Part shown: positions 1 through 61,231 of the stretch, in pieces
Layout of the letters: every line of letters starts with the position of its first letter
How positions within the stretch are numbered: position 1 is the first letter of the stretch
Assembly (NCBI GenBank): GCA_018715085.1
Contig: DVMI01000128.1
Span: forward strand, 1-64,000
Length of the DNA stretch: 64,000 nt
Source: Candidatus Avidesulfovibrio excrementigallinarum
GTDB lineage: Bacteria > Desulfobacterota > Desulfovibrionia > Desulfovibrionales > Desulfovibrionaceae
Direction: 5' to 3'
Position numbers and translations under genes: made by a program
Notes under the pieces: generated by a model
What the model was told of the DNA's origin: nothing
Database searches by the model: none
Seen by the model: the letters and a program-made list of their open reading frames with translations, nothing else

Positions 1-183
1 GTGTGAAAGAATTCTCAATTCAATGAGATGCATGACCTACTTTTAAAAATCTATTGACCTTCCTTGTAGAATCCGCCATGTCAATTAAAGCGAAGTCGGT
101 ATGAAATCTAACAAAAACCGACATGTTTCCAGCGTGAACCGCAGGGAATGGCTACCCGCTCCCGTCTGCAAAGCGAGGTTTAC

Positions 184-2133
184 ATGCTACACATTCTGCT
201 TTGGGGTTGTATTGTGCTCCCGGTGCTTGCCGCACTGGTCACTCTGGTCTGTGCCAACGATGCGCTGCGTAACAAAATCGTTTTTGGAGGGGTGGGGCTG
301 ACGGCGCTGTCTGCCGTAGGACTTGCGCTGTACGGCAGCTTTACGCTGCCTGTCCCGGCAAGCAGCATGCTTGGCAGCCTGATCACCCTGCTGGACTTCG
401 TTCTGCTGCTGATCATCCTGTCCATTGTGATCAGGCGGCGGCATAAGCTGGGGCTGGCCTTTGCCCTGGCCCAGCTTGCCGGGCTTCTGTGTCTGGATTT
501 CTGGCTTCTGGACGGGCACGCGCCGGCAGCCTTCATTGCCGACACGCTTTCCATCGCCATGGTGCTCATCATCTCCCTTGTCGGGGGCGTCATCTGCATC
601 TACGCCATCGGCTACATGAAAGAACATGAAGAGCACCTGCGCCTGCCCAAAACGCGTCAGCCGCGCTTCTTCTTTGTTCTGCTGCTGTTCCTCGGAGCCA
701 TGAACGGGCTTGTTCTTTCTGACAGCCTGGCCTGGATGTTCTTTTTCTGGGAAGTGACCACACTCTGCTCCTTCCTCCTGATCGGCCACGACCAGACGGC
801 CATTGCACGGGCCAACGCCATGCGGGCCTTGTGGATGAACCTGCTTGGCGGCGTTGCCTTCATGGCGGCCATGCTGTTCCTGCAAAGCACTGTGGGCACG
901 CTGTCGGTTCAGGAACTGCTGGCCATGGGCACCAATCCTGCCGTGCAGGCCGGCGCACCGCTGCTGCCGCTGGCGCTGCTCTGCCTTGCCGGGTTCACCA
1001 AGTCGGCCCAGCTGCCTTTCCAGAGCTGGCTGTGCGGCGCCATGGTGGCCCCCACGCCCGTGTCGGCCCTGCTGCACTCCTCGACCATGGTCAAGGCCGG
1101 CGTCTACCTTGTGATTCGCCTGGCCCCGGCGTATGTGGGCACCATGCTCTCGCCCATGGTTGCGCTGGCCGGCCTGTTCACCTTTGTGGCCACTTCGGCG
1201 CTGGCCGTCGGCCAGAGTAACGGCAAAAAGATTCTTGCCTACTCCACCATTGCCAATCTCGGCCTGATCATCGGCTGCGCCGGCATAGGCACCCCGGCCG
1301 CCATCACGGCCGCCACGCTGCTGCTGATTTTCCACGCCATTTCCAAGGGGCTCATGTTCCTTTGCGTGGGCAGCATTGAACAACACATCGGTTCGCGCGA
1401 CATCGAAGACATGCGCGGGCTGTATCAGGTCATGCCGCGCACGGCGATCATCACCCTCATTGGCATCGTGACGCTGATGCTGCCCCCCTTTGGCGCGCTG
1501 CTTGCCAAGTGGATGGCCATCGAAGCGGCGGCGGCCAGTTCGATTTTCATGCCCGTCTTTGTGGTGCTGATTGCCTTTGGCAGCGCGCTGACCGTGCTGT
1601 TCTGGGCGCGCTGGGCCGGTCTGATTCTGGGCGTCAATCCGCTGCTGAAGCACCCGCCCGTTGTGGAAAAGCAGGATGACACCGTCCGGTTTGCCCTGAC
1701 CTCGCTGGTGCTGGCTGCGGTGCTTCTCTCGCTGCTGTCGCCCTTTGTGTATGCGGGGCTTGCGCCCAACATTGCCGCACAGTTCGGGCTGCTTGGCCTC
1801 TATACGGTCCGCTGGGGACTGTTTGAAAACGGCATCGGCCTGTTTGCGGTCTATCCGATCTTTGTCCTGCTGGGCATAGGCATCTGGCTTGCCGTGCGGG
1901 CCGCGCGCAAGGCGGCCGGCGCCGCGCGCACCGACGCCTGTCTGCCCTACCTGTCGGGCATTCAGATGGTCGAGGGCGAAACCATCGGCATCAACGGGCC
2001 GATGAGCAACCTCGTCCAACCCACCCTGTCCAACTACTATCTGGCCGAATGGTTTGGTGAAGCGACACTCACGCGAACCTGCAACACCATTGCGCTGGTC
2101 CTGCTGACGCTTATGCTGGGAGGTTTGATCTGA
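184..2133 (+). CDS. echA: Ech hydrogenase subunit A, NuoL/MrpA-like proton-translocating membrane subunit
   Basis: Multi-TM antiporter-like protein (FFFWEVTTLCSFLLIG, KSAQLPFQSWLCGAMVAPTPVSALLHSSTMVKAGVYL); first gene of an ech-type operon; internal ATG at 184 chosen (MLHILLWGCIVLP). Confidence 0.9.
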   Translation: MLHILLWGCIVLPVLAALVTLVCANDALRNKIVFGGVGLTALSAVGLALYGSFTLPVPASSMLGSLITLLDFVLLLIILSIVIRRRHKLGLAFALAQLAGLLCLDFWLLDGHAPAAFIADTLSIAMVLIISLVGGVICIYAIGYMKEHEEHLRLPKTRQPRFFFVLLLFLGAMNGLVLSDSLAWMFFFWEVTTLCSFLLIGHDQTAIARANAMRALWMNLLGGVAFMAAMLFLQSTVGTLSVQELLAMGTNPAVQAGAPLLPLALLCLAGFTKSAQLPFQSWLCGAMVAPTPVSALLHSSTMVKAGVYLVIRLAPAYVGTMLSPMVALAGLFTFVATSALAVGQSNGKKILAYSTIANLGLIIGCAGIGTPAAITAATLLLIFHAISKGLMFLCVGSIEQHIGSRDIEDMRGLYQVMPRTAIITLIGIVTLMLPPFGALLAKWMAIEAAAASSIFMPVFVVLIAFGSALTVLFWARWAGLILGVNPLLKHPPVVEKQDDTVRFALTSLVLAAVLLSLLSPFVYAGLAPNIAAQFGLLGLYTVRWGLFENGIGLFAVYPIFVLLGIGIWLAVRAARKAAGAARTDACLPYLSGIQMVEGETIGINGPMSNLVQPTLSNYYLAEWFGEATLTRTCNTIALVLLTLMLGGLI

Positions 2134-2981
2134 TGCTCAAGTTCCTGTTTGCCCTTGTGGCGCTCGCGCTGTCCATCCCGGCTGGCGGCCTGCTTGCCGG
2201 CCTTGACAGAAAGCTCACCGCCCGTTTGCAGTCCCGTATTGGCCCGCCGCTGCTCCAGCCCTTCTATGACGTGCTGAAACTGTTTGGCAAAGCGCCCTGT
2301 GTGAGCAACCCCTGGCTGGTTTTCTGCTCGTTTGTGTGTGTGACCTGTTCGGCGCTGGCCCTGTTTTTGTTCTTCATGCAGGGCGATCTCCTGCTGCTCT
2401 TCTTTGTCATGACAATCAGCGCCGTGTTCAAGGTGGCAGGCGCGTTGAGCATCCCCTCGCCCTTCAGCAACGTGGGCGCACAGCGCGAACTGTTGCAGAT
2501 GCTGGCCTATGAGCCGCTGATCACGCTGGTGTTTGTGGCCATCTCGGCCGTGACGGGCAGCTTCATGATTGGCGACGTGTACGCGTCTGAAACGCCGCTG
2601 CTGCTGCAGCTGCCTTTCCTGTATCTCGCACTGGGCTATGCCCTGACCATCAAGCTGGGCAAGTCTCCCTTTGACATTTCGGCCTGCCATCACGGGCATC
2701 AGGAAATCGTCAGAGGCGTATTGACCGAGTACAGCGGCCCGCAGCTGGCGCTGCTTGAACTTTCCCACTGGCTCGACACCATCCTGATCCTCGGTCTCTG
2801 CGCGCTGTTCTGGCACACTTCGTTCACGGGTATGGTCATCCTGCTGGTGATAACCTATCTGGCAGAAATTCTTGTGGACAACATCACCGCGCGCATGACG
2901 TGGCAGTGGATGCTGAAAAACGCCTTCGGGCCGACCCTGGTCCTGGCAGTCTTCAACATTCTCTGGCTCTACGTCCGTTAG
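2133..2981 (+). CDS. echB: Ech hydrogenase subunit B, NuoH-like membrane protein
   Basis: NuoH/HycD-like sequence (GLDRKLTARLQSRIGPPLLQPFYDVLKLFGK); overlaps the echA stop. Confidence 0.9.
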   Translation: MLKFLFALVALALSIPAGGLLAGLDRKLTARLQSRIGPPLLQPFYDVLKLFGKAPCVSNPWLVFCSFVCVTCSALALFLFFMQGDLLLLFFVMTISAVFKVAGALSIPSPFSNVGAQRELLQMLAYEPLITLVFVAISAVTGSFMIGDVYASETPLLLQLPFLYLALGYALTIKLGKSPFDISACHHGHQEIVRGVLTEYSGPQLALLELSHWLDTILILGLCALFWHTSFTGMVILLVITYLAEILVDNITARMTWQWMLKNAFGPTLVLAVFNILWLYVR

Positions 2982-2992
2982 GAGTTTGCCTT

Positions 2993-3487
2993 ATGGATAT
3001 CGCAAAAAAGCTGACCGAAGCCCTGGGCGGGTATATCAACAAGGGACGCGTCAAGTCGCCCTGGGTCATCCACTACGACTGCGGCTCCTGTAACGGCTGC
3101 GACATTGAAGTTCTGGCCTGTCTGACACCGATGTTTGACATCGAACGCTTTGGCATTCTGAACATCGGCGATCCCAAACACGCTGACGTGCTGCTTGTCA
3201 CCGGCACCGTCAACCACCGCAACAAGGTTGTCCTGCGCAACATCTACGACCAGATGCCCGATCCCAAGGCCGTGATCGCCGTAGGCACCTGCGCCTGTTC
3301 CGGCGGCGTGTTTCAGGACTGTTACAACGTGGTCGGCGGGGTCGATCAAATCATCCCTGTCGACGTCTATATCCCCGGTTGCGCCGCCAAGCCCGAAGCC
3401 ATCATCGACGGGGTCGTGCTGGCGCTTGAGGTTGTCAAAGGCAAGCTCGGCCTGCAGCCTCTCCCGCAAACCACCGTCTTTGAATAA
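2993..3487 (+). CDS. echC: Ech hydrogenase subunit C, NuoB-like small subunit
   Basis: CGSCNGCDIEVLACLTP and GTCACSGGVFQDCYNVVGGVDQIIPVDVYIPGC motifs; ATG at 2993. Confidence 0.9.
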   Translation: MDIAKKLTEALGGYINKGRVKSPWVIHYDCGSCNGCDIEVLACLTPMFDIERFGILNIGDPKHADVLLVTGTVNHRNKVVLRNIYDQMPDPKAVIAVGTCACSGGVFQDCYNVVGGVDQIIPVDVYIPGCAAKPEAIIDGVVLALEVVKGKLGLQPLPQTTVFE

Positions 3488-3501
3488 TCTGGAGAACCGC
3501 C

Positions 3502-3891
3502 ATGCCCAACCATGTGGATATCCTGGAAGCCGAACCGCTGTCGCTTGACCGTGTGCGCGAGGTGGCCCGGGCCAACTTTGAGGCCGGGTTCCGGCTGGTC
3601 ACTCTGTCGGTGGTCAACCTCGGCGACGGCAATCTGGACATCATCTACCATTACGACAAAAACCTTGAGATGCGTCACTACAGACTCACGGTGCCCATCG
3701 GCGTCACAGTGCCGAGCATCTCGGACATCTACTTCTGCGCCATGCTGATTGAAAACGAAAGCCGCGACCATTACGGCATCACCTGGGACGGTCTTGTCAT
3801 TGACTTCCAGGGCTGCCTGTATCTGGAAAAGGACACGCCGCCGCCGCTTCTGCGCGGTCCTTCGTGCACCATTTCCACCATTGGCCGCTAG
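3502..3891 (+). CDS. echD: Ech hydrogenase subunit D, NuoC-like
   Basis: Position in operon; NuoC-like C-terminus (AMLIENESRDHYGITWDGLVIDFQGCLYLE). Confidence 0.8.
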   Translation: MPNHVDILEAEPLSLDRVREVARANFEAGFRLVTLSVVNLGDGNLDIIYHYDKNLEMRHYRLTVPIGVTVPSISDIYFCAMLIENESRDHYGITWDGLVIDFQGCLYLEKDTPPPLLRGPSCTISTIGR

Positions 3892-4110
3892 GGCGACGGT
3901 TCCAGCGCGTTCCCCAAAGCGCCGCATGACGCGCGCCGGACATGGGGCGCACATGGAACAGCCCAGGGCGCAGCAAGCGCCGTCCCCGGTCACTGTGCCG
4001 GCGCCTCCGACGCCGGCGGCACACGGCCTTATGGCCGCCTGTCCGGGCAACCGATTGTCTCAACGCTGCGGAAACAGGCCTCCGGCCCCGGTTTCCAGCA
4101 AGGAGTCACC

Positions 4111-5187
4111 ATGTCTCGCACACTCATCCCCTTTGGCCCCCAGCACCCGGTGCTTCCCGAGCCGCTGCACCTTTCGCTCGTGCTGGAGAACGAAACCGTC
4201 GTCGAAGCCATACCCAAACTGGGATACATCCATCGCGGGCTTGAAAACCTTACCGCCCTGCGCGACTACAACCAGATGATTTATATTGTCGAGCGCGTTT
4301 GCGGCATCTGCTCGTGCATCCACGCCATGTGCTTCTGCCACGCCGTGGAGCACCTCATGCAGGTCGAAGTGCCCCGCCGCGCCAAGTATCTGCGGATCAT
4401 CTGGTCTGAACTGCACCGTATGCACAGCCATCTGCTCTGGCTGGGGCTGCTGGCTGACGCCATCGGCTTTGAAAGCCTGTTCATGCAGTTCTGGAAAATC
4501 CGCGAGCGCGTCATGGACATCAACGAAGCGACGGCCGGCAACCGCGTCATCATTTCCACCAACGTGATCGGCGGGGTGCGCAAGGACCTCTCCCGCGAGC
4601 ATCAGCGCTGGATTGTTGACGAGCTCAATATCCTCGAGACCGAAATGCACCGTCTTGAAAAGATCTGCACCGACGACTACACGCTGCGCAAGCGTACTGT
4701 GGGCGTCGGCGTGCTGACCGCCGAGCAGGTCATTCAGCTGGGCGCGGTAGGCCCCACCATGCGCGCCAGCGGCGTGGCCCAGGACGCCCGCATGCTGCAC
4801 TACGAAGCCTTCAAGGAGCTGGGATTCACCCCGGTCACGGCGCTTGACGGCGACAGCTGGGCCAGGACGATCGTGCGCTTTAAGGAAGTCTATCAATCCA
4901 TGGATATCGTCCGGCAGGCCATCAACCACCTGCCGGAAGGCGAAATCAACGTCAAGGTTCGTGGCAATCCCACTGGGGAGGCCGTAGCCCGTGTGGAACA
5001 GCCCCGTGGCGAACTGTTCTACTACGTCAAGGGCAACGGCTCAAAGTACCTGGACCGGGTACGCATCCGCACGCCAACTTTTTCAAACATCCCGCCGATG
5101 CTGGCCATGCTCAAGGGGATCCAGCTTGCCGACGTGCCTGTGGCCGTTTTGAGCATTGACCCCTGCATCAGCTGCACTGAGCGCTAG
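4111..5187 (+). CDS. echE: Ech hydrogenase subunit E, [NiFe] catalytic large subunit
   Basis: Both [NiFe]-site motifs present: RVCGICSCIH and C-terminal DPCISCTER. Confidence 0.93.
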   Translation: MSRTLIPFGPQHPVLPEPLHLSLVLENETVVEAIPKLGYIHRGLENLTALRDYNQMIYIVERVCGICSCIHAMCFCHAVEHLMQVEVPRRAKYLRIIWSELHRMHSHLLWLGLLADAIGFESLFMQFWKIRERVMDINEATAGNRVIISTNVIGGVRKDLSREHQRWIVDELNILETEMHRLEKICTDDYTLRKRTVGVGVLTAEQVIQLGAVGPTMRASGVAQDARMLHYEAFKELGFTPVTALDGDSWARTIVRFKEVYQSMDIVRQAINHLPEGEINVKVRGNPTGEAVARVEQPRGELFYYVKGNGSKYLDRVRIRTPTFSNIPPMLAMLKGIQLADVPVAVLSIDPCISCTER

Positions 5188-8927: not shown

Positions 8928-9156
8928 CGCCGGCGCCTTATTTTCAGGGACGGCCGCCCGGCCGTCCCGTCCTTACAGACGCCGCGTCATGCGGCGTCTG
9001 CCGTTTCTGCCAGGCGTGCAGTCCGGGCCGTGCGCGGCAGGCGTGTTTTTTGCGCTTGCATCCGGCGTGAAATAAGCGTACACACCGCCGCATGCGGCCT
9101 TACTGTCTGGCGCCGCACTCCCTCAAAAGCTCTTACCTCACAAATGGATAGCTGAC

Positions 9157-11031
9157 ATGAACGACGCAAAGACCCCGCGCGAGCCACGCCCTCCTTTCAA
9201 AAACCGAGAAGACCATGCGCCACGCCGGGACGCGCCGGCTCGTGACGGCTTCCGCCCCGCTCGGGGAGAACGCCCCGACCGCCGTGCCGGCGGCAATCAC
9301 GACGACGCGTCGTCCCGCTCCCGCCGCGACGGCAAACGCCCCTTCTCCCGTCCTGAAAACGACGCCCAGGGCGCACCCCGCGCCCCGCGCAAAGGCGACA
9401 GCCTCGGCCCCCTGCGCGACGTGGACGAAGACATCCTCAAGCTGATTGTCCGGCGTGCGCGCCTGCTGGCCAGAATGCCGGAAAACGCTTCGCGCGAGCG
9501 CGCCCTGCGCACCCACTGGGAAGAACACGCCTCCCGCGTCAGCCGCGATCCACGGCTGATCCGCCAGCTGTTTGCCCTGCTGCAGGAAGTCAATGTTGCG
9601 GCGGAAGATTTGACCACAGGCGCATTCAACCTTGCCCCGTCCTCCTCCCCCGTACAGGCCGATCTTGCACTGCCCGGCTCTTCCCGTCAGGCGCGCCTGT
9701 ACGCGGCCCTGGCCGCCGCATCGGGCGCAGAGACGACGATCAACAACGTTCTGCTCAACACGCCCCTTGTGGAATGCGTGAAGATGCTCGGCCAGCTCGG
9801 CGCGAGCGCCCGCTGGGATGAAATCGGCACTCCGCGGGTCCGCATTGCCGCTGGCAAAGGCTTTGCCGGCACCGAACAAAGCGGCGCTGTGCGCTCCGTC
9901 CTGGACAAAGTCCTGCATGCCGGGGAAGATCCGCTCAACCTCTATCTGCTCCTCTTTTTGATGCTCACCCGGCCGACCCGGGTCAAGATCCTGGGCGAAA
10001 GCAATCTGCGCTTTCTCGATCTGTCGCCGGTGCGTCATTTTCTGCCGCGCCTGGGGGCGCGCCTGTCCAGCGTGGTTCCGGGACAGGACGGCCTGCCTGT
10101 ACGCCTTGAAGCCTCGGCGCTGCTGCCCTCTGCGGTGAACGTGCCCGGTGAGCTGCCCGACGACGCTGTCACCGCGCTGCTGCTGGCAACCCCGTTCTGG
10201 CACAAGCCGGTCACGGTGGATCTGGGCGCGTGCGCCCATGCCGGCGCGCTGCTGGACGAAGCAGAAGCCATCCTGCGCAGCTGCGGCTGTGAAATGACCC
10301 GTCAGGGCTTCACGCTGCGCGTGACGCCGGGGACGCTGCGCATGCCCGCTGCGCCGGCGCTTGCCATGACGCTGCCGCTGGCCTTTGCGCTGCTGGCCAT
10401 GCCTGGCCTGAACGGCGGCCGGGTTGTCCTGCACGGGCAGTGGCCCGCCAGCGAACGGCTGGCAGCGCCGGCTGAAGCCCTGCTGCGCCGCGTTGTGGAC
10501 CTGCGCATCGACGGCGGCACGGTGGAAAGCGCCCCTCTCGGGGATACGCCCCCGGCCTGGAGCTTTGACGATCTGCCTGTGGAACTGGCCGGACCGGCTC
10601 TGGCCCTGTTTGCCCATCAGCTGCCGGGCTCCGGCACAAAGACCTTGCCCTGCCTGCCCGAAGGCACCGACATGCTCCTTGCCGACGAGTTTTTGCTCCA
10701 TCTGGGCTACACCCGCAACGGCCGCACGCTGGAGCCCGCGCCAGAAGCCGAACGGCTCCCCTGGGCCGCGCCGGACGTCTGGTGGGGCATCGGCTTTGCG
10801 CTGGCCGCCTTTACCCGGCGCGATCTGCGCCTGAGCAATCCCGGCAGCCTTACGGCGCTCATTCCGCCTTTCTGGACGGCTTACAACTCGTTGCCTGAAC
10901 CGACGCTCGAACGGTCGCTTCCTGCCGTCTCCGACGAAGAGGCTCCCAGCGCTCCCGTGCGCCGGCGCATCCATTCCAAGGAGTTCCTGGCGGAAGAGGA
11001 TCTGCCTCCTGCACTGGAGTACGACGACTAG
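9157..11031 (+). CDS. EPSP-synthase-fold protein (AroA-like, catalytic motifs degenerate) with disordered N-terminus and possible chorismate-mutase-like segment
   Basis: LALPGSSRQARLYAALAAASGAETTINNVLL...VECVKMLGQLGA aligns by eye with AroA N-terminus; later blocks also align but without catalytic residues. Confidence 0.65.
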   Translation: MNDAKTPREPRPPFKNREDHAPRRDAPARDGFRPARGERPDRRAGGNHDDASSRSRRDGKRPFSRPENDAQGAPRAPRKGDSLGPLRDVDEDILKLIVRRARLLARMPENASRERALRTHWEEHASRVSRDPRLIRQLFALLQEVNVAAEDLTTGAFNLAPSSSPVQADLALPGSSRQARLYAALAAASGAETTINNVLLNTPLVECVKMLGQLGASARWDEIGTPRVRIAAGKGFAGTEQSGAVRSVLDKVLHAGEDPLNLYLLLFLMLTRPTRVKILGESNLRFLDLSPVRHFLPRLGARLSSVVPGQDGLPVRLEASALLPSAVNVPGELPDDAVTALLLATPFWHKPVTVDLGACAHAGALLDEAEAILRSCGCEMTRQGFTLRVTPGTLRMPAAPALAMTLPLAFALLAMPGLNGGRVVLHGQWPASERLAAPAEALLRRVVDLRIDGGTVESAPLGDTPPAWSFDDLPVELAGPALALFAHQLPGSGTKTLPCLPEGTDMLLADEFLLHLGYTRNGRTLEPAPEAERLPWAAPDVWWGIGFALAAFTRRDLRLSNPGSLTALIPPFWTAYNSLPEPTLERSLPAVSDEEAPSAPVRRRIHSKEFLAEEDLPPALEYDD

Positions 11032-11281
11032 CGCCAAACGGAGCGGTTTTGCGTCCGAACGGAACCGCTCCGGCAGGCACGACTTATCCCCGGCGCCGTG
11101 CGCACCGCGGCCTATGCGGCGCGCACAGCCAGCGGACCTGCTTGCAGTTTCTGCCCGGACATCGACGCGCTCAGGCCGCGCGGCAACAACGCGGCCCCAT
11201 GCCGGGCATATTCAACCCGGGGCTTCCCCGGCCGGGAACGGACGCGCCGCAGGCGCTCCCGTTCCGCCAGGAGCGATACCC

Positions 11282-13475: not shown

Positions 13476-13789
13476 ACAACAGCGGACAAGGCACTGCCCC
13501 GGCTGCCGGGGAAATATGCCCGGTTTCTCAACCGGCGTCCGGCAGCAAGACGCCAGAGCGCGTCCGCGCGGTGCGGCGCCTGGCGCTCCTGCCGGCCCGT
13601 CCGCAGGAGTGCTGCCAAGGCAACACGCTGGAAAAGCGACTTCCGGCTCCGGCAGCGCGGGCCGCTGCCGGACCGGGCCGCTGCACCGCACGTTTCCCGC
13701 GTGGCGCAACAGACCACAACGACATGCCGCACCACGCGCAAAACGCCCCGGGCACGGGACAAGCCCCTGCACGAGGCACGAGGTATCGT

Positions 13790-14803
13790 ATGAAAAAATG
13801 GCTGATTATCCTGCTTGTGCTCGTCGTGGCCGGCGCAGGCGGCTGGTACGGCTTCCTCTACCTGCATGGCGGCGCAGAGCCGTTTGTGCTTTACGGCAAT
13901 GTGGACATCCGTCAGGTCTCGCTGGCCTTCAACAGCAGCGGCCGCATACGGGCCATGACCGTGGAAGAAGGCGATCAGATACATGCAGGCCAGGTGCTGG
14001 CCCGGCTTGACGACACCTCCCTGCGCCTGCAGGCCGACAAGGCCAGGGCCGACATCGCCGCGCTGGATCAGGCGCTGCTGCGCCTGCTGAACGGCACGCG
14101 GCCGGAAGAACTGGCCCAGGCCAGAGCCAGCGTGGCCGCCGCCCAGGCAGAAGCCACCTTTACCGCCCAGCAGCGCAGGCGCATGCAGGCGCTGTTTTCC
14201 GGCGGCAGCGGGCACGCCGTCAGCCGCCAGGAACTTGACAACGCCATTTCGGCTGACGACATGGCCACCGCCAAGCTGCGCTCTGCCCGCGAAGCCCTGC
14301 GCCTGGCAGAAATTGGCCCGCGTGACGAAGACATTGCGCAGGCCCGCGCTCAGCTGGAGAGCGCCAAGGCACAGCTGGCCATTCTGGAACACGACATTGC
14401 CGAAACCGTGCTGCTTTCTCCCTGTGACGGCGTCATCCGCTCCCGGCTTCTTGAGCCGGGCGACATGGCTTCGCCCCAGCGCGCCGTCTACCTGGTCGCG
14501 CTGACCAGCCCCAAATGGATCCGGGCCTATGTGTCAGAACCACAGCTCGGCCTCATCCATGAGGGCATGCGCCTGAGCGTAACCACTGACAGCTGGCCGG
14601 ACGACCCTGTAACCGGCACTGTGGGCTTTATCGCCTCCGTTGCGGAGTTCACGCCCAAGACCGTGCAGACAGAAGAACTGCGCAGTGCGCTGCTCTATGA
14701 AGTGCGGGTTCTGGTGGACGATCCCGACAACCGGCTGCGCCTGGGCATGCCGGCCACCGTCCGCCTGGCAGACGAAGGGAGCGGCACCGCCCGGCGTCCC
14801 TAG
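13790..14803 (+). CDS. HlyD/YbhG-like periplasmic adaptor (membrane fusion) protein
   Basis: MKKWLIILLVLVVAGAGG TM; YGNVDIRQVSLAFNSSGRI; coiled coil. Confidence 0.88.
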   Translation: MKKWLIILLVLVVAGAGGWYGFLYLHGGAEPFVLYGNVDIRQVSLAFNSSGRIRAMTVEEGDQIHAGQVLARLDDTSLRLQADKARADIAALDQALLRLLNGTRPEELAQARASVAAAQAEATFTAQQRRRMQALFSGGSGHAVSRQELDNAISADDMATAKLRSAREALRLAEIGPRDEDIAQARAQLESAKAQLAILEHDIAETVLLSPCDGVIRSRLLEPGDMASPQRAVYLVALTSPKWIRAYVSEPQLGLIHEGMRLSVTTDSWPDDPVTGTVGFIASVAEFTPKTVQTEELRSALLYEVRVLVDDPDNRLRLGMPATVRLADEGSGTARRP

Positions 14804-14929
14804 CCGGTCCGGCTGCGGCGCGCCTGCAGGCCCGGACGTCATGCAGACAGAACAACAAGGCTGCCGCGCCCTGCAGACAGAGGCACCTTCCGGTGACAGG
14901 CCCGGGACTTGCACCACAAAGGAAACGAC

Positions 14930-16822
14930 ATGAAAGAACTGGCGATTCAGGCCCGCGACGTGCACAAGTCGTTCCGGATTAAGGAATCCGGACGGATCGT
15001 GCGGGCTGTGGACGGCGTGACGCTTGACGTGCCCACCGGCATGATCTCCGCTCTGGTGGGGCCGGACGGCGCGGGCAAGACAACGCTGCTGCGGATGATC
15101 TGCGGTCTGACGTCGCCAGAAAGCGGAACGCTTGCCGTGCTTGGCACCGACACGGCCGCGCACCCGCAGGCTGTCCAGGATCGCATCAGCTACATGCCCC
15201 AGCGCTTTGGGCTGTACGAGGATCTGACTGTCCGCGAAAACATGGAGCTGTATGCCGATCTGCACTGCGTCCCCCGGGAGCGGCGCGAGCAGCGCAACGC
15301 CCGGCTCCTGGCCATGATGGATCTCGACCGTTTTACAGAACGCCTGGCAGGGCGTCTTTCCGGAGGCATGAAGCAAAAGCTCGGGCTGGCCTGCACCCTT
15401 GTCCGTCCGCCGGATCTGCTGCTGCTGGACGAGCCCACCGCCGGCGTGGATCCGCTGTCGCGCCGGGAGCTGTGGAGCATCCTCAGGCAGCTTGAGAAGG
15501 AAGAGTCGCTGACGGTGCTGGTCAGCACCGCCTACCTGGATGAAGCAGCCCTCTGCAAGCAGGTTTTCATCATGCACGAAGGGCAGCTGATCGCGCAGGG
15601 CACGCCTGACGAGCTGGCGTCGCTGGCCGCAGGACGCTGCTTTGACGTAACCCTGCCGCCCGGGATGGCGGCCCGCACAGTACAGGCTGCGCTGCTTGAC
15701 GATACCGCAACCGTGGCCGACGCCGTCCCGGCGGGCGGCCTTGTGCACTGCATGCTGCGCCGGAATGCCGACGCCGGCGCGCTGCACGCGCGCTTCGGGC
15801 TGACCGCGCACCCTGTGCCGCCCACGCTGGAAGACGGTTTCATGCTGCTGCTGCGCGAACGGCAGAAAGAGGCGGCGCAAGCCCATGGCCCTGCTGAAGA
15901 AGACGGCCGCGCCGCAGTCCAAGGCACCCTGCCGGGCAGTCCCGCGCGCGGCTCCGGCGCGCCCGGCAGCACCGCCTTTTCCCGTCATGTGGGCGCTTCC
16001 GTGCAGGACGGACAACAGGCCGCTCCGGCAGACAACGCTGCCGGAGCCACAGACGGCGCGGCAGGCGACGTGGTGATCGAGGTGCGCGACCTCGTCAAGC
16101 GCTTTGGCTCGTTCACGGCTGTGGACAGCACGTCCTTCTGCGTCCGCAGGGGCGAAATTTTCGGCCTGCTCGGGCCCAACGGCGCAGGCAAGACCACCAC
16201 CTTCCGGATGCTGTGCGGGCTGTTGCCCGCCACCAGCGGCCTGTTGCGGGTTGCCGGCAACGACCTGCGCACGGCCAGGGCCCAGGCCCGCGCCAATATC
16301 GGCTATGTGGCCCAGAAGTTTTCTCTGTACGGCACGCTGACCGTCGAGGAAAACCTGCAGTTTTTTGGCGGCATCTACAACCTGCACGGCCGGCGGCTGC
16401 GCGAGCGGATCGCCACCGTGCGCCGGCAGTTTGATCTGCGCGAAGAAAACGGCCTGCCGTGCAACGCCATGCCCGGCGGATTCCGCCAGCGCCTGGCCAT
16501 GGCCGCCGGACTGCTCCACGAGCCGCAAATCCTGTTCCTTGACGAACCCACAAGCGGCATTGACGCACTGGCCCGGCGCGCCTTCTGGCGGCAGATTACC
16601 GAGCTTGCAGCCGGCAGCACCACCATCATCATCACCACCCATTTTATGGAAGAAGCCGAATACTGCGATCGCATGGTCATCCAGGACGCCGGGAAAATCC
16701 TGGCCCTGGGCACGCCCGGCGACGTGCGGCGTCAGGCCGGTCCGGACGTGAACAGCATGGAAGAAGCCTTCATCCGCATTGTCGAGCGGCATCGGGCCGC
16801 CCGGGCAGGAGCTGAACAATGA
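14930..16822 (+). CDS. YbhF-like ABC exporter ATP-binding protein with two fused ABC domains
   Basis: Two Walker A motifs (GPDGAGKTT, GPNGAGKTT), LSGGMKQK signature and LLLLDEPT/LFLDEPT. Confidence 0.92.
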   Translation: MKELAIQARDVHKSFRIKESGRIVRAVDGVTLDVPTGMISALVGPDGAGKTTLLRMICGLTSPESGTLAVLGTDTAAHPQAVQDRISYMPQRFGLYEDLTVRENMELYADLHCVPRERREQRNARLLAMMDLDRFTERLAGRLSGGMKQKLGLACTLVRPPDLLLLDEPTAGVDPLSRRELWSILRQLEKEESLTVLVSTAYLDEAALCKQVFIMHEGQLIAQGTPDELASLAAGRCFDVTLPPGMAARTVQAALLDDTATVADAVPAGGLVHCMLRRNADAGALHARFGLTAHPVPPTLEDGFMLLLRERQKEAAQAHGPAEEDGRAAVQGTLPGSPARGSGAPGSTAFSRHVGASVQDGQQAAPADNAAGATDGAAGDVVIEVRDLVKRFGSFTAVDSTSFCVRRGEIFGLLGPNGAGKTTTFRMLCGLLPATSGLLRVAGNDLRTARAQARANIGYVAQKFSLYGTLTVEENLQFFGGIYNLHGRRLRERIATVRRQFDLREENGLPCNAMPGGFRQRLAMAAGLLHEPQILFLDEPTSGIDALARRAFWRQITELAAGSTTIIITTHFMEEAEYCDRMVIQDAGKILALGTPGDVRRQAGPDVNSMEEAFIRIVERHRAARAGAEQ

Positions 16823-17979
16823 ACGCCACCGCTTCCGTCAACGCCTTCCTTGTCCGCCTCGGCGCGCTGACGCGCAAGGAATTCCGTCAGCTCTGGCGGG
16901 ACAACAGCAACATCCTGATCGGCATCGTCCTGCCCATCATCCTGATTCTGCTGTTTGGCTATGCCATTTCCCTTGACGTGAAGCACGCGCCCATCGCCCT
17001 CGTCATGGACGACGATTCTCCGCTGGCGCGGGACGTGCTCAGCGGCCTGCACGGCGAATATCTGTCCCCGCGTCCGGTGCCGTCCATGCGGGAGGCGGAA
17101 CGCCTTCTCAGAAACCGCGAAGTGGACGGCATTGTCCGCCTGCCTGCCAATTTTGCCGAACAGCTTGCCGCCGGTTCCGCCCAGGTGCAGCTTGTGTTGT
17201 ACGGGACGGATCCCACCAGCGCCACGGCCATCCGGGGTTATGTCAGCAGTGCGCTCAACCTCTGGGTGCTGCGCAACAGCGACCGCGGCGGCCCCGCGCC
17301 CGGCGTCTTTGCAGACAGCACGTCCACAGGCCGCGTTGAAGTTCTCGATCGCCTGTGGTTCAACGCGGCCAACTCCAGCATGTGGTACCTTGTGCCGGGC
17401 CTTGTGGTCATCATCATGACCCTTGTCGGCGCGTTCATGACCGCGCTGGTCATGGCGCGCGAATGGGAACGGGGCACGCTTGAATCGCTGTTTGTCACGC
17501 CTGTGCACAGGACGGAAATCCTGCTTTCCAAAATCATTCCCTATTTTCTGGTCGGCATGATCGGCTTTTTCCTGTGTCTGCTTGCTGCGCGCTTTTTGTT
17601 CCGGGTGCCTTTGTACGGTTCGCTTGCCGTGCTGCTGCTGACGTCCATGCTGTATCTTATTGTCTCTCTGGCGCTGGGCCTTGTGCTTTCCGCTCTGACA
17701 AAAAAACAGTTTCTTGCCAGTCAGCTCGCCCTGTTTGCCACCTTTCTGCCGGCAGTCATGCTTTCGGGCTTTCTGTTCGACCTGCGCTGCGTGCCGCCTC
17801 TGGTCCGCTATGTGGGGCAAATCCTCCCCGCCACCTACTACATGGAACTCATCAGGACCCTGTTTCTTGCCGGCAACATCTGGCCGCTCATTCTCAAAAA
17901 CAACTGCGTGCTGCTGGGCTACGCCGTCCTTTTTTTGATCCTGGCATACGCAGGCACGCCCAAGAGGCTTTTCCGATGA
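16819..17979 (+). CDS. ABC-2 type permease (YbhS/YbhR-like)
   Basis: ABC-2 membrane protein; overlaps upstream stop. Confidence 0.9.
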   Translation: MNATASVNAFLVRLGALTRKEFRQLWRDNSNILIGIVLPIILILLFGYAISLDVKHAPIALVMDDDSPLARDVLSGLHGEYLSPRPVPSMREAERLLRNREVDGIVRLPANFAEQLAAGSAQVQLVLYGTDPTSATAIRGYVSSALNLWVLRNSDRGGPAPGVFADSTSTGRVEVLDRLWFNAANSSMWYLVPGLVVIIMTLVGAFMTALVMAREWERGTLESLFVTPVHRTEILLSKIIPYFLVGMIGFFLCLLAARFLFRVPLYGSLAVLLLTSMLYLIVSLALGLVLSALTKKQFLASQLALFATFLPAVMLSGFLFDLRCVPPLVRYVGQILPATYYMELIRTLFLAGNIWPLILKNNCVLLGYAVLFLILAYAGTPKRLFR

Positions 17980-59962: not shown

Positions 59963-61231
59963 TCAGTCCTCGTCCTTTTCGCGGCGGATCCGCGCCCCCA
60001 CGGCGTTGAGCTTGGCTTCAATCCGCGAATAACCCCGATCAAGATGGTAAATCCGCTGCACCGTGGTTGTGCCGCGGGCTGCCAGACCCGCAAGAACAAG
60101 ACTGGCGCTGGCCCGCAGATCCGAGGCCATCACCGGCGCGCCGTTCAGACGCCGCACCCCGCGCACCACGGCCGTATGGCCGGACAGACGGATATCCGCA
60201 CCAAGGCGAACCAGCTCCTGCACATGCATGAAGCGGTTTTCAAAAATATTTTCGGTGATGATGCCCGAGCCTTCGGCAAGACACATCAGCGCCATGATCT
60301 GCGCCTGCATGTCGGTGGGAAAACCGGGATACGGGCGCGTGACCACGTCGACGCAGCTCAGCGGCCTGTCGGGATTGCAGCGCGCCAGCACGCCTTCGGG
60401 CGTGGGGGTAAGGCTCATTCCCATCTGCTCGAGTTTGCCGATGACCGTTTCCAGCTCGTCCCACGGACAGTTTCTGAGCAGCAGCTCGCCGCCGGTAATG
60501 CCCGCCGCCACCATGAACGTGCCGGCTTCGATGCGGTCCGGCATGACGGCATGGGTGCAGCCGTGCAGCAGCGGGACGCCCTGAATGTGGATGATACCCG
60601 AATCCTCGCCTTCGATCCGCGCCCCGCAACTGCGCAGAAACTGCGCCAGCTCCACAATTTCGGGTTCGCGCGCCGCGTTTTCAAGCACAGTCTCCCCTTC
60701 GGCAAGGGCAGCCGCCATCATGACGTTTTCGGTACCGCCCACCGTCGGGAAGTCAAAATGAATCCGCGCACCATGGAGCCTGCGGCAGCGGCCCAGAATA
60801 TACCCGTCCTCAAGCTCGAAACGGGCTCCCATTTTTTCAAGCGCAGACAGATGCAGATCAACCGGACGGGCGCCGATGGCGCAGCCTCCCGGCATGGCCA
60901 CGCGCGCCTGCCCCAGCCGCGCCAGCAGCGGCCCGAGGCACAGCACCGACGCACGCATGGTTTTGACCAGCTCATAGGGCGCTTCGGGACGCAGCTCCGC
61001 CGCCCGCCGGACAACCACGCCCTGCTCGGGCGCAAAGCTGCCGGGACATCCCAGCAGATCAAGCAGCATGACCGACGTGCGGATGTCGCGCAAATCGGGC
61101 ACTGAAGTGAAGGTCACCTCGTCGTCAATCAGAATGGCCGCCATCAGCAACGGCAGCGCCGCGTTCTTGGAGCCGCTGATCTCAATACTGCCAACCAGGG
61201 GCACGCCCCCTTCAATAACCAGTTTGTCCAT
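59963..61231 (-). CDS. murA: UDP-N-acetylglucosamine 1-carboxyvinyltransferase
   Basis: [50 protein letters not shown] with catalytic Cys. Confidence 0.96.

Follow-up and report, generated by a model that had tools for sequence, protein, structure and literature searches.

The gene at positions 9157–11031 (forward strand) of the window, the 64,000-nucleotide stretch of Candidatus Avidesulfovibrio excrementigallinarum DNA analysed here, encodes a fusion of an AroQ-type chorismate-mutase-like domain to an EPSP-synthase-fold domain, and judged from its sequence the protein is, with high probability, non-catalytic for both reactions. The open reading frame runs from an ATG start to a TAG stop and yields a product of 624 residues; conservation across a family and a whole-gene dN/dS of 0.166, described below, support the gene call. 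The product comprises a disordered, charged N-terminal tail (residues 1–82, positions 9157–9402), a three-helix chorismate-mutase-like domain (residues 83–144, positions 9403–9588), an EPSP-synthase-fold domain without catalytic residues (residues 157–580, positions 9625–10896) and, after a disordered charged linker, a conserved RRRI motif (residues 602–605, positions 10960–10971), all on the forward strand. The AlphaFold2 model of the whole protein has a mean pLDDT of 82.6. An opposite-strand ORF (9133–11037, 634 residues) has no family support and was ruled out as a real gene; it looks like a high-GC shadow ORF. A scan for promoters and terminators returned nothing beyond chance level.

Taken alone, the window protein matches the relevant profiles weakly (Pfam EPSP_synthase at E=1e-3, under the gathering cut-off; NCBIfam aroA at 31.6 bits, against an equivalog cut-off of 287) or, with Pfam CM_2, not at all, so both domain assignments are secured by the family members and their profiles. 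The EPSP-synthase-fold body is modelled with pLDDT mostly above 90, and Foldseek ranks EPSP synthase first, with a probability of 1.00 and a TM score of 0.80 to the E. coli enzyme. EPSP_synthase is matched by 22 of 37 family members, some above gathering cut-offs, and over positions ~110–520 the family profile matches PDB entries for EPSP synthases (9e-30), in agreement with the AroA-like body that a first-pass annotation had read from the sequence. That annotation had also seen a segment resembling an AroQ first helix, which is borne out by CM_2 matches in 24 of the 37 members (some above gathering cut-offs) and by a family-profile match at 1.3e-5 to 1ecm, the chorismate mutase of E. coli, over positions 15–92. 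The profile of the chorismate-mutase-like part aligns with the chorismate mutase domain of PheA from the organisms that carry the family (hhalign, 90%). Its predicted fold in isolation consists of three helices, for which the top Foldseek match is a DAHP synthase/chorismate mutase, a weak one (E 2.3).

Residues at the EPSP synthase site were compared in an alignment that combined 41 family members and 20 canonical AroA sequences from the order, using the established E. coli numbering of the catalytic positions. The 22 canonical substrate-binding or catalytic columns are invariant in the 20 canonical proteins. In the family, K22, S23, R27, G96, T97, R100, R124, S169–Q171, S197, Y200, D313, K340, R344, H385, R386 and K411 are replaced, mostly by variable residues, and E341 is likewise replaced across the 41 members. 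Asp242 is the only canonical catalytic residue kept (36/41), and it is absent from the window copy. The mean entropy of the 20 scorable catalytic columns within the family is 2.57, compared with 2.32 elsewhere (one-sided p=0.84); these columns are thus no better conserved than others, which indicates that constraint at the old EPSP synthase site has gone. The residues that are conserved in this part are mostly fold residues common to canonical AroA (R302, P314, E318, P570, W573 and N561). By sequence criteria, the family protein is not an EPSP synthase.

The motif placements made by eye in the first-pass annotation were right in part. LPGSSRQAR does correspond to the SKS motif, VPGELPDDAVTALL to SSQ and DVWWGIGFAL to the DHR block, whereas the counterparts of PDAAM and KETDR were misregistered: MPAAPALAMTL is the Asp242 block, with the Asp313 position falling at PVELAGPAL (as Glu), and the segment equivalent to KETDR lies not at ASERL but near LPEGTDM. 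The latter is in a loosely aligned loop; the family evolves fast (mean column identity 28%), and for that reason some loop motif columns, such as those of the K340 region, are aligned only loosely. The conclusion drawn from these motifs, that essentially all substrate-contacting residues are lost, survives both misplacements. The replacement is family-wide, and the Lys/Asp/Glu/Arg catalytic set does not reappear once the sequences are aligned.

In the chorismate-mutase-like domain, Arg28 (R100 in the window protein) and Glu52 (E114) are invariant in 37/37 members, and the Lys39 equivalent, which is deleted in the window copy, is Arg in 26/37 and Arg or Lys in 32/37. Arg11, Arg51 and Gln88 are lost in nearly all of the 37, so that the family lacks the full AroQ active-site set (R11, R28, K39, R51, E52, Q88), which is complete in the PheA domains of these organisms. 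The family protein is very probably not a chorismate mutase, although the invariance of Arg28 and Glu52 could mark a retained ligand site or even weak activity. These two residues and the preserved fold are also what would speak for a divergent yet active EPSP synthase or chorismate mutase, a reading that the missing catalytic residues and the presence of canonical copies make very improbable. A newly acquired reaction, for which either the EPSP synthase cleft or the chorismate-mutase-like pocket would supply novel catalytic residues, is unlikely but deserves more weight. It would account for the invariant Arg28 and Glu52, for the substitution of Lys39 by Arg in most members and for the Asp242 equivalent kept across most of the family, though not in the window protein; against it, the cleft columns contain no new conserved polar set, and conserved positions are mostly structural.

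A separate, complete canonical aroA is present elsewhere in the same genome (367.6 bits, over the cut-off, all motifs present), directly downstream of pheA, which encodes the chorismate mutase/prephenate dehydratase. Absence of any other aroA, which had been named as grounds for abandoning the pseudoenzyme reading, is therefore not the situation in this organism. Across the relatives, canonical aroA is present as well (over the cut-off in 52/59), also in the genera that have no family gene. The common descent of both domains from the aromatic pathway, together with the adjacency of pheA and aroA in the source genome, would suit a regulatory subunit of that pathway, either in a heteromer with AroA or PheA or as a chorismate or prephenate sensor. 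We regard this as improbable, slightly more so than a new enzyme, since no aromatic-pathway cluster recurs beside the gene in 41 loci and canonical aroA is kept where the family gene is missing. A weak match to the aroA model (40 bits) at 60035–60724 on the reverse strand, inside a 431-residue ORF, is most likely murA, judged by size and score.

The family protein was found in 51 of 59 relatives by protein search and, with a profile built from 37 members, in 131 of the 149 class genomes sampled (a hand count from the result table). True members scored E < 1e-110 and canonical AroA ~1e-30 or weaker. A search of the phylum outside the class gave no member: all matches were at or below 165 bits, covered the AroA part only, and came mostly from ORFs of ~420–480 residues, that is, canonical AroA. 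The family thus spans the sulfur-respiring order Desulfovibrionales and is absent beyond the class within the searched sample. Its members form one clade (SH-aLRT 100%) whose branching broadly mirrors that of the host families. Long branches separate this clade from all canonical AroA copies, and descent from the order's own canonical AroA is only one possible origin; the distribution is class-wide and largely vertical. An aconitase scan gave carriers in Desulfomicrobium, Pseudodesulfovibrio, Humidesulfovibrio, Desulfocurvus and Desulfonatronospira. DVU1063, guessed as the family gene of D. vulgaris Hildenborough from its position before the aconitase DVU1064, proved to be a flagellar regulator.

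The ORF is intact in 41/41 loci, and the same holds for nearly every genome of the class that gave a match. Against a genome of the same genus (G002), the whole-gene dN/dS is 0.166, with the chorismate-mutase-like part at 0.057, the EPSP synthase part at 0.131 and the N-terminal tail at 0.58, and both folded domains are kept by purifying selection. The intact frames and the low dN/dS contradict a decaying pseudogene, an interpretation that fast sequence drift and loss from a group of genera might have invited and to which we give almost no credence. The expectation of a conserved, undescribed family was also upheld: the profile libraries and literature searched hold no description of it, no chorismate mutase–EPSP synthase model in NCBIfam is matched by it, and the open-access literature returned no EPSP-synthase-fold pseudoenzyme and nothing relevant on the locus. 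Fold, residue loss, a separate aroA and family conservation together favour the pseudoenzyme reading.

In the commonest arrangement, qmo/apr and sat lie upstream of the family gene, which is followed on the same strand by aconitase (acn) and a PpiD-like isomerase. Neighbours were identified from sequence, and sat was placed at matching coordinates by a PF01747 search. Aconitase is a neighbour in 25/41 loci and the PpiD-like gene in 26/41, and the order sat-[gene]-acn-ppiD, with apr/qmo alongside, appears to be ancestral in the Desulfovibrionales. The family gene alone has been cleanly lost from two genomes in which sat-acn-ppiD are still together (G011, G032), and it is absent beside a still adjacent acn-ppiD pair in G026, G007 and one Solidesulfovibrio contig. 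A PLP-dependent aminotransferase-like gene follows the family gene in five loci (L084, L086, L088, L089, L090), and a PAS sensor-kinase-like gene separates it from aconitase/PpiD in four (L040, L042, L050, L097). The window copy lies outside the sat-acn-ppiD locus, between Tim44-like and phosphomethylpyrimidine-kinase-like genes. Elsewhere in the window are a Complex I/hydrogenase-like cluster (148–5187; antiporter-type, NuoH-type and 49-kDa/NiFe-type subunits) and an HlyD-type adaptor followed by an RbbA-like ABC transporter split across two ORFs (13571–17979).

ATP sulfurylase was not detected in the source genome or in G002, whose assemblies are only 79–83% complete (79% for the source genome), nor in G003, G008, G010 and G013, and all six carry the family gene. 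Aconitase of the locus type was not detected in G010 and G013. An obligatory link to sulfate activation was accordingly rejected, and, with the gene kept where sat or acn went undetected, neither neighbour is an obligatory partner. The source genome does contain dsrA (657 bits, C25:39127–40386), and the organism may respire sulfite or sulfonates, not sulfate.

The two termini differ in their conservation. The Arg/Asp/Pro/Gly-rich N-terminus noted at the outset is an 82-residue tail (pLDDT ~40, 27% R+K, with many acidic residues as well) that is lineage-specific, missing or short in most relatives and weakly constrained; Arg-rich tails occur in several lineages, with RGER repeats in L086. The C-terminal motif, of the type [RK]RR[IV]x[IV] (RRRIxI), stands at or near the protein end, and a simple pattern for it in the last 35 residues is matched by 37/41 members, compared with 9/216 neighbouring proteins. 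The motif, the conserved locus, the clean gene loss and the retention without detected sat or acn are new relative to the first-pass annotation. The EPSP synthase fold is related to that of RNA 3'-phosphate cyclase (EPT/RTPC-like fold), and this kinship, the basic, disordered termini, the conserved RRRIxI and the recurring Arg-rich tails might suggest RNA or nucleic-acid binding. The N-terminal tails, however, are unconserved and rich in acidic residues too, and family scans gave no recurrent nucleic-acid-binding family; this role is about as unlikely as a new catalytic one.

The data are explained most economically if the protein is a double pseudoenzyme turned to binding, whose most probable point of contact is the C-terminal motif. 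An ancient AroA paralogue would have been joined with a chorismate mutase domain of the AroQ type, both sites now apparently unequipped for their ancestral chemistry, and we consider it fairly probable that the product is today a dispensable binding or regulatory protein. The folded body may serve as a rigid binding module and the flexible RRRIxI may dock on a partner, while the reduced charged pocket of the chorismate-mutase-like half (Arg28, Arg/Lys39, Glu52) could be a binding site for an anionic metabolite, or may do no more than stabilise the fold or a dimer. The chances that this putative binding or regulatory protein acts through the C-terminal motif seem to us evenly balanced. The protein may have a regulatory, scaffold or nucleic-acid role, as first proposed; in the reading preferred here it would be a dispensable regulator or scaffold of central or sulfur-linked metabolism. 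More tentatively, and with somewhat less than even confidence, the order-wide family might represent two shikimate-pathway folds turned into a metabolite-sensing or docking regulator, born in the sulfate-reduction/aconitase locus and acting via RRRIxI. Automatic annotation may label the family EPSP synthase or chorismate mutase, which misleads surveys of glyphosate targets as well as the reconstruction of pathways. A conserved EPSP-synthase-fold pseudoenzyme, if true, would mean that the fold can persist for a non-catalytic role, and the sat-acn position beside apr/qmo makes the protein a candidate component of sulfate-reducer physiology, for which genera with natural loss of the gene offer a ready comparison.

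With EPSP synthase AroA (PF00275, TIGR01356; E. coli 1g6s, 1mi4) the family shares fold and homology over ~420 residues, but it lacks the substrate-binding and catalytic residues, carries an N-terminal chorismate-mutase-like fusion and a disordered C-terminal motif, and is encoded by an extra copy alongside canonical aroA. With AroQ chorismate mutase (PF01817; 1ecm; the PheA N-terminal domain) it shares the three-helix domain, Arg28, Glu52 and, in most members, Lys39 as Arg or Lys, whereas Arg11, Arg51 and Gln88 are missing and the first helix is shortened. Known AroA fusions (TyrA-AroA, NF011381; AroA-cytidylate kinase, NF008816; AROM) also join EPSP synthase to another domain, but their partner domains are different and their names are those of active enzymes with two or more functions. 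In its conserved fold, lost catalytic residues and purifying selection, the family resembles pseudoenzymes in general, the regulatory dead paralogues of active enzymes.
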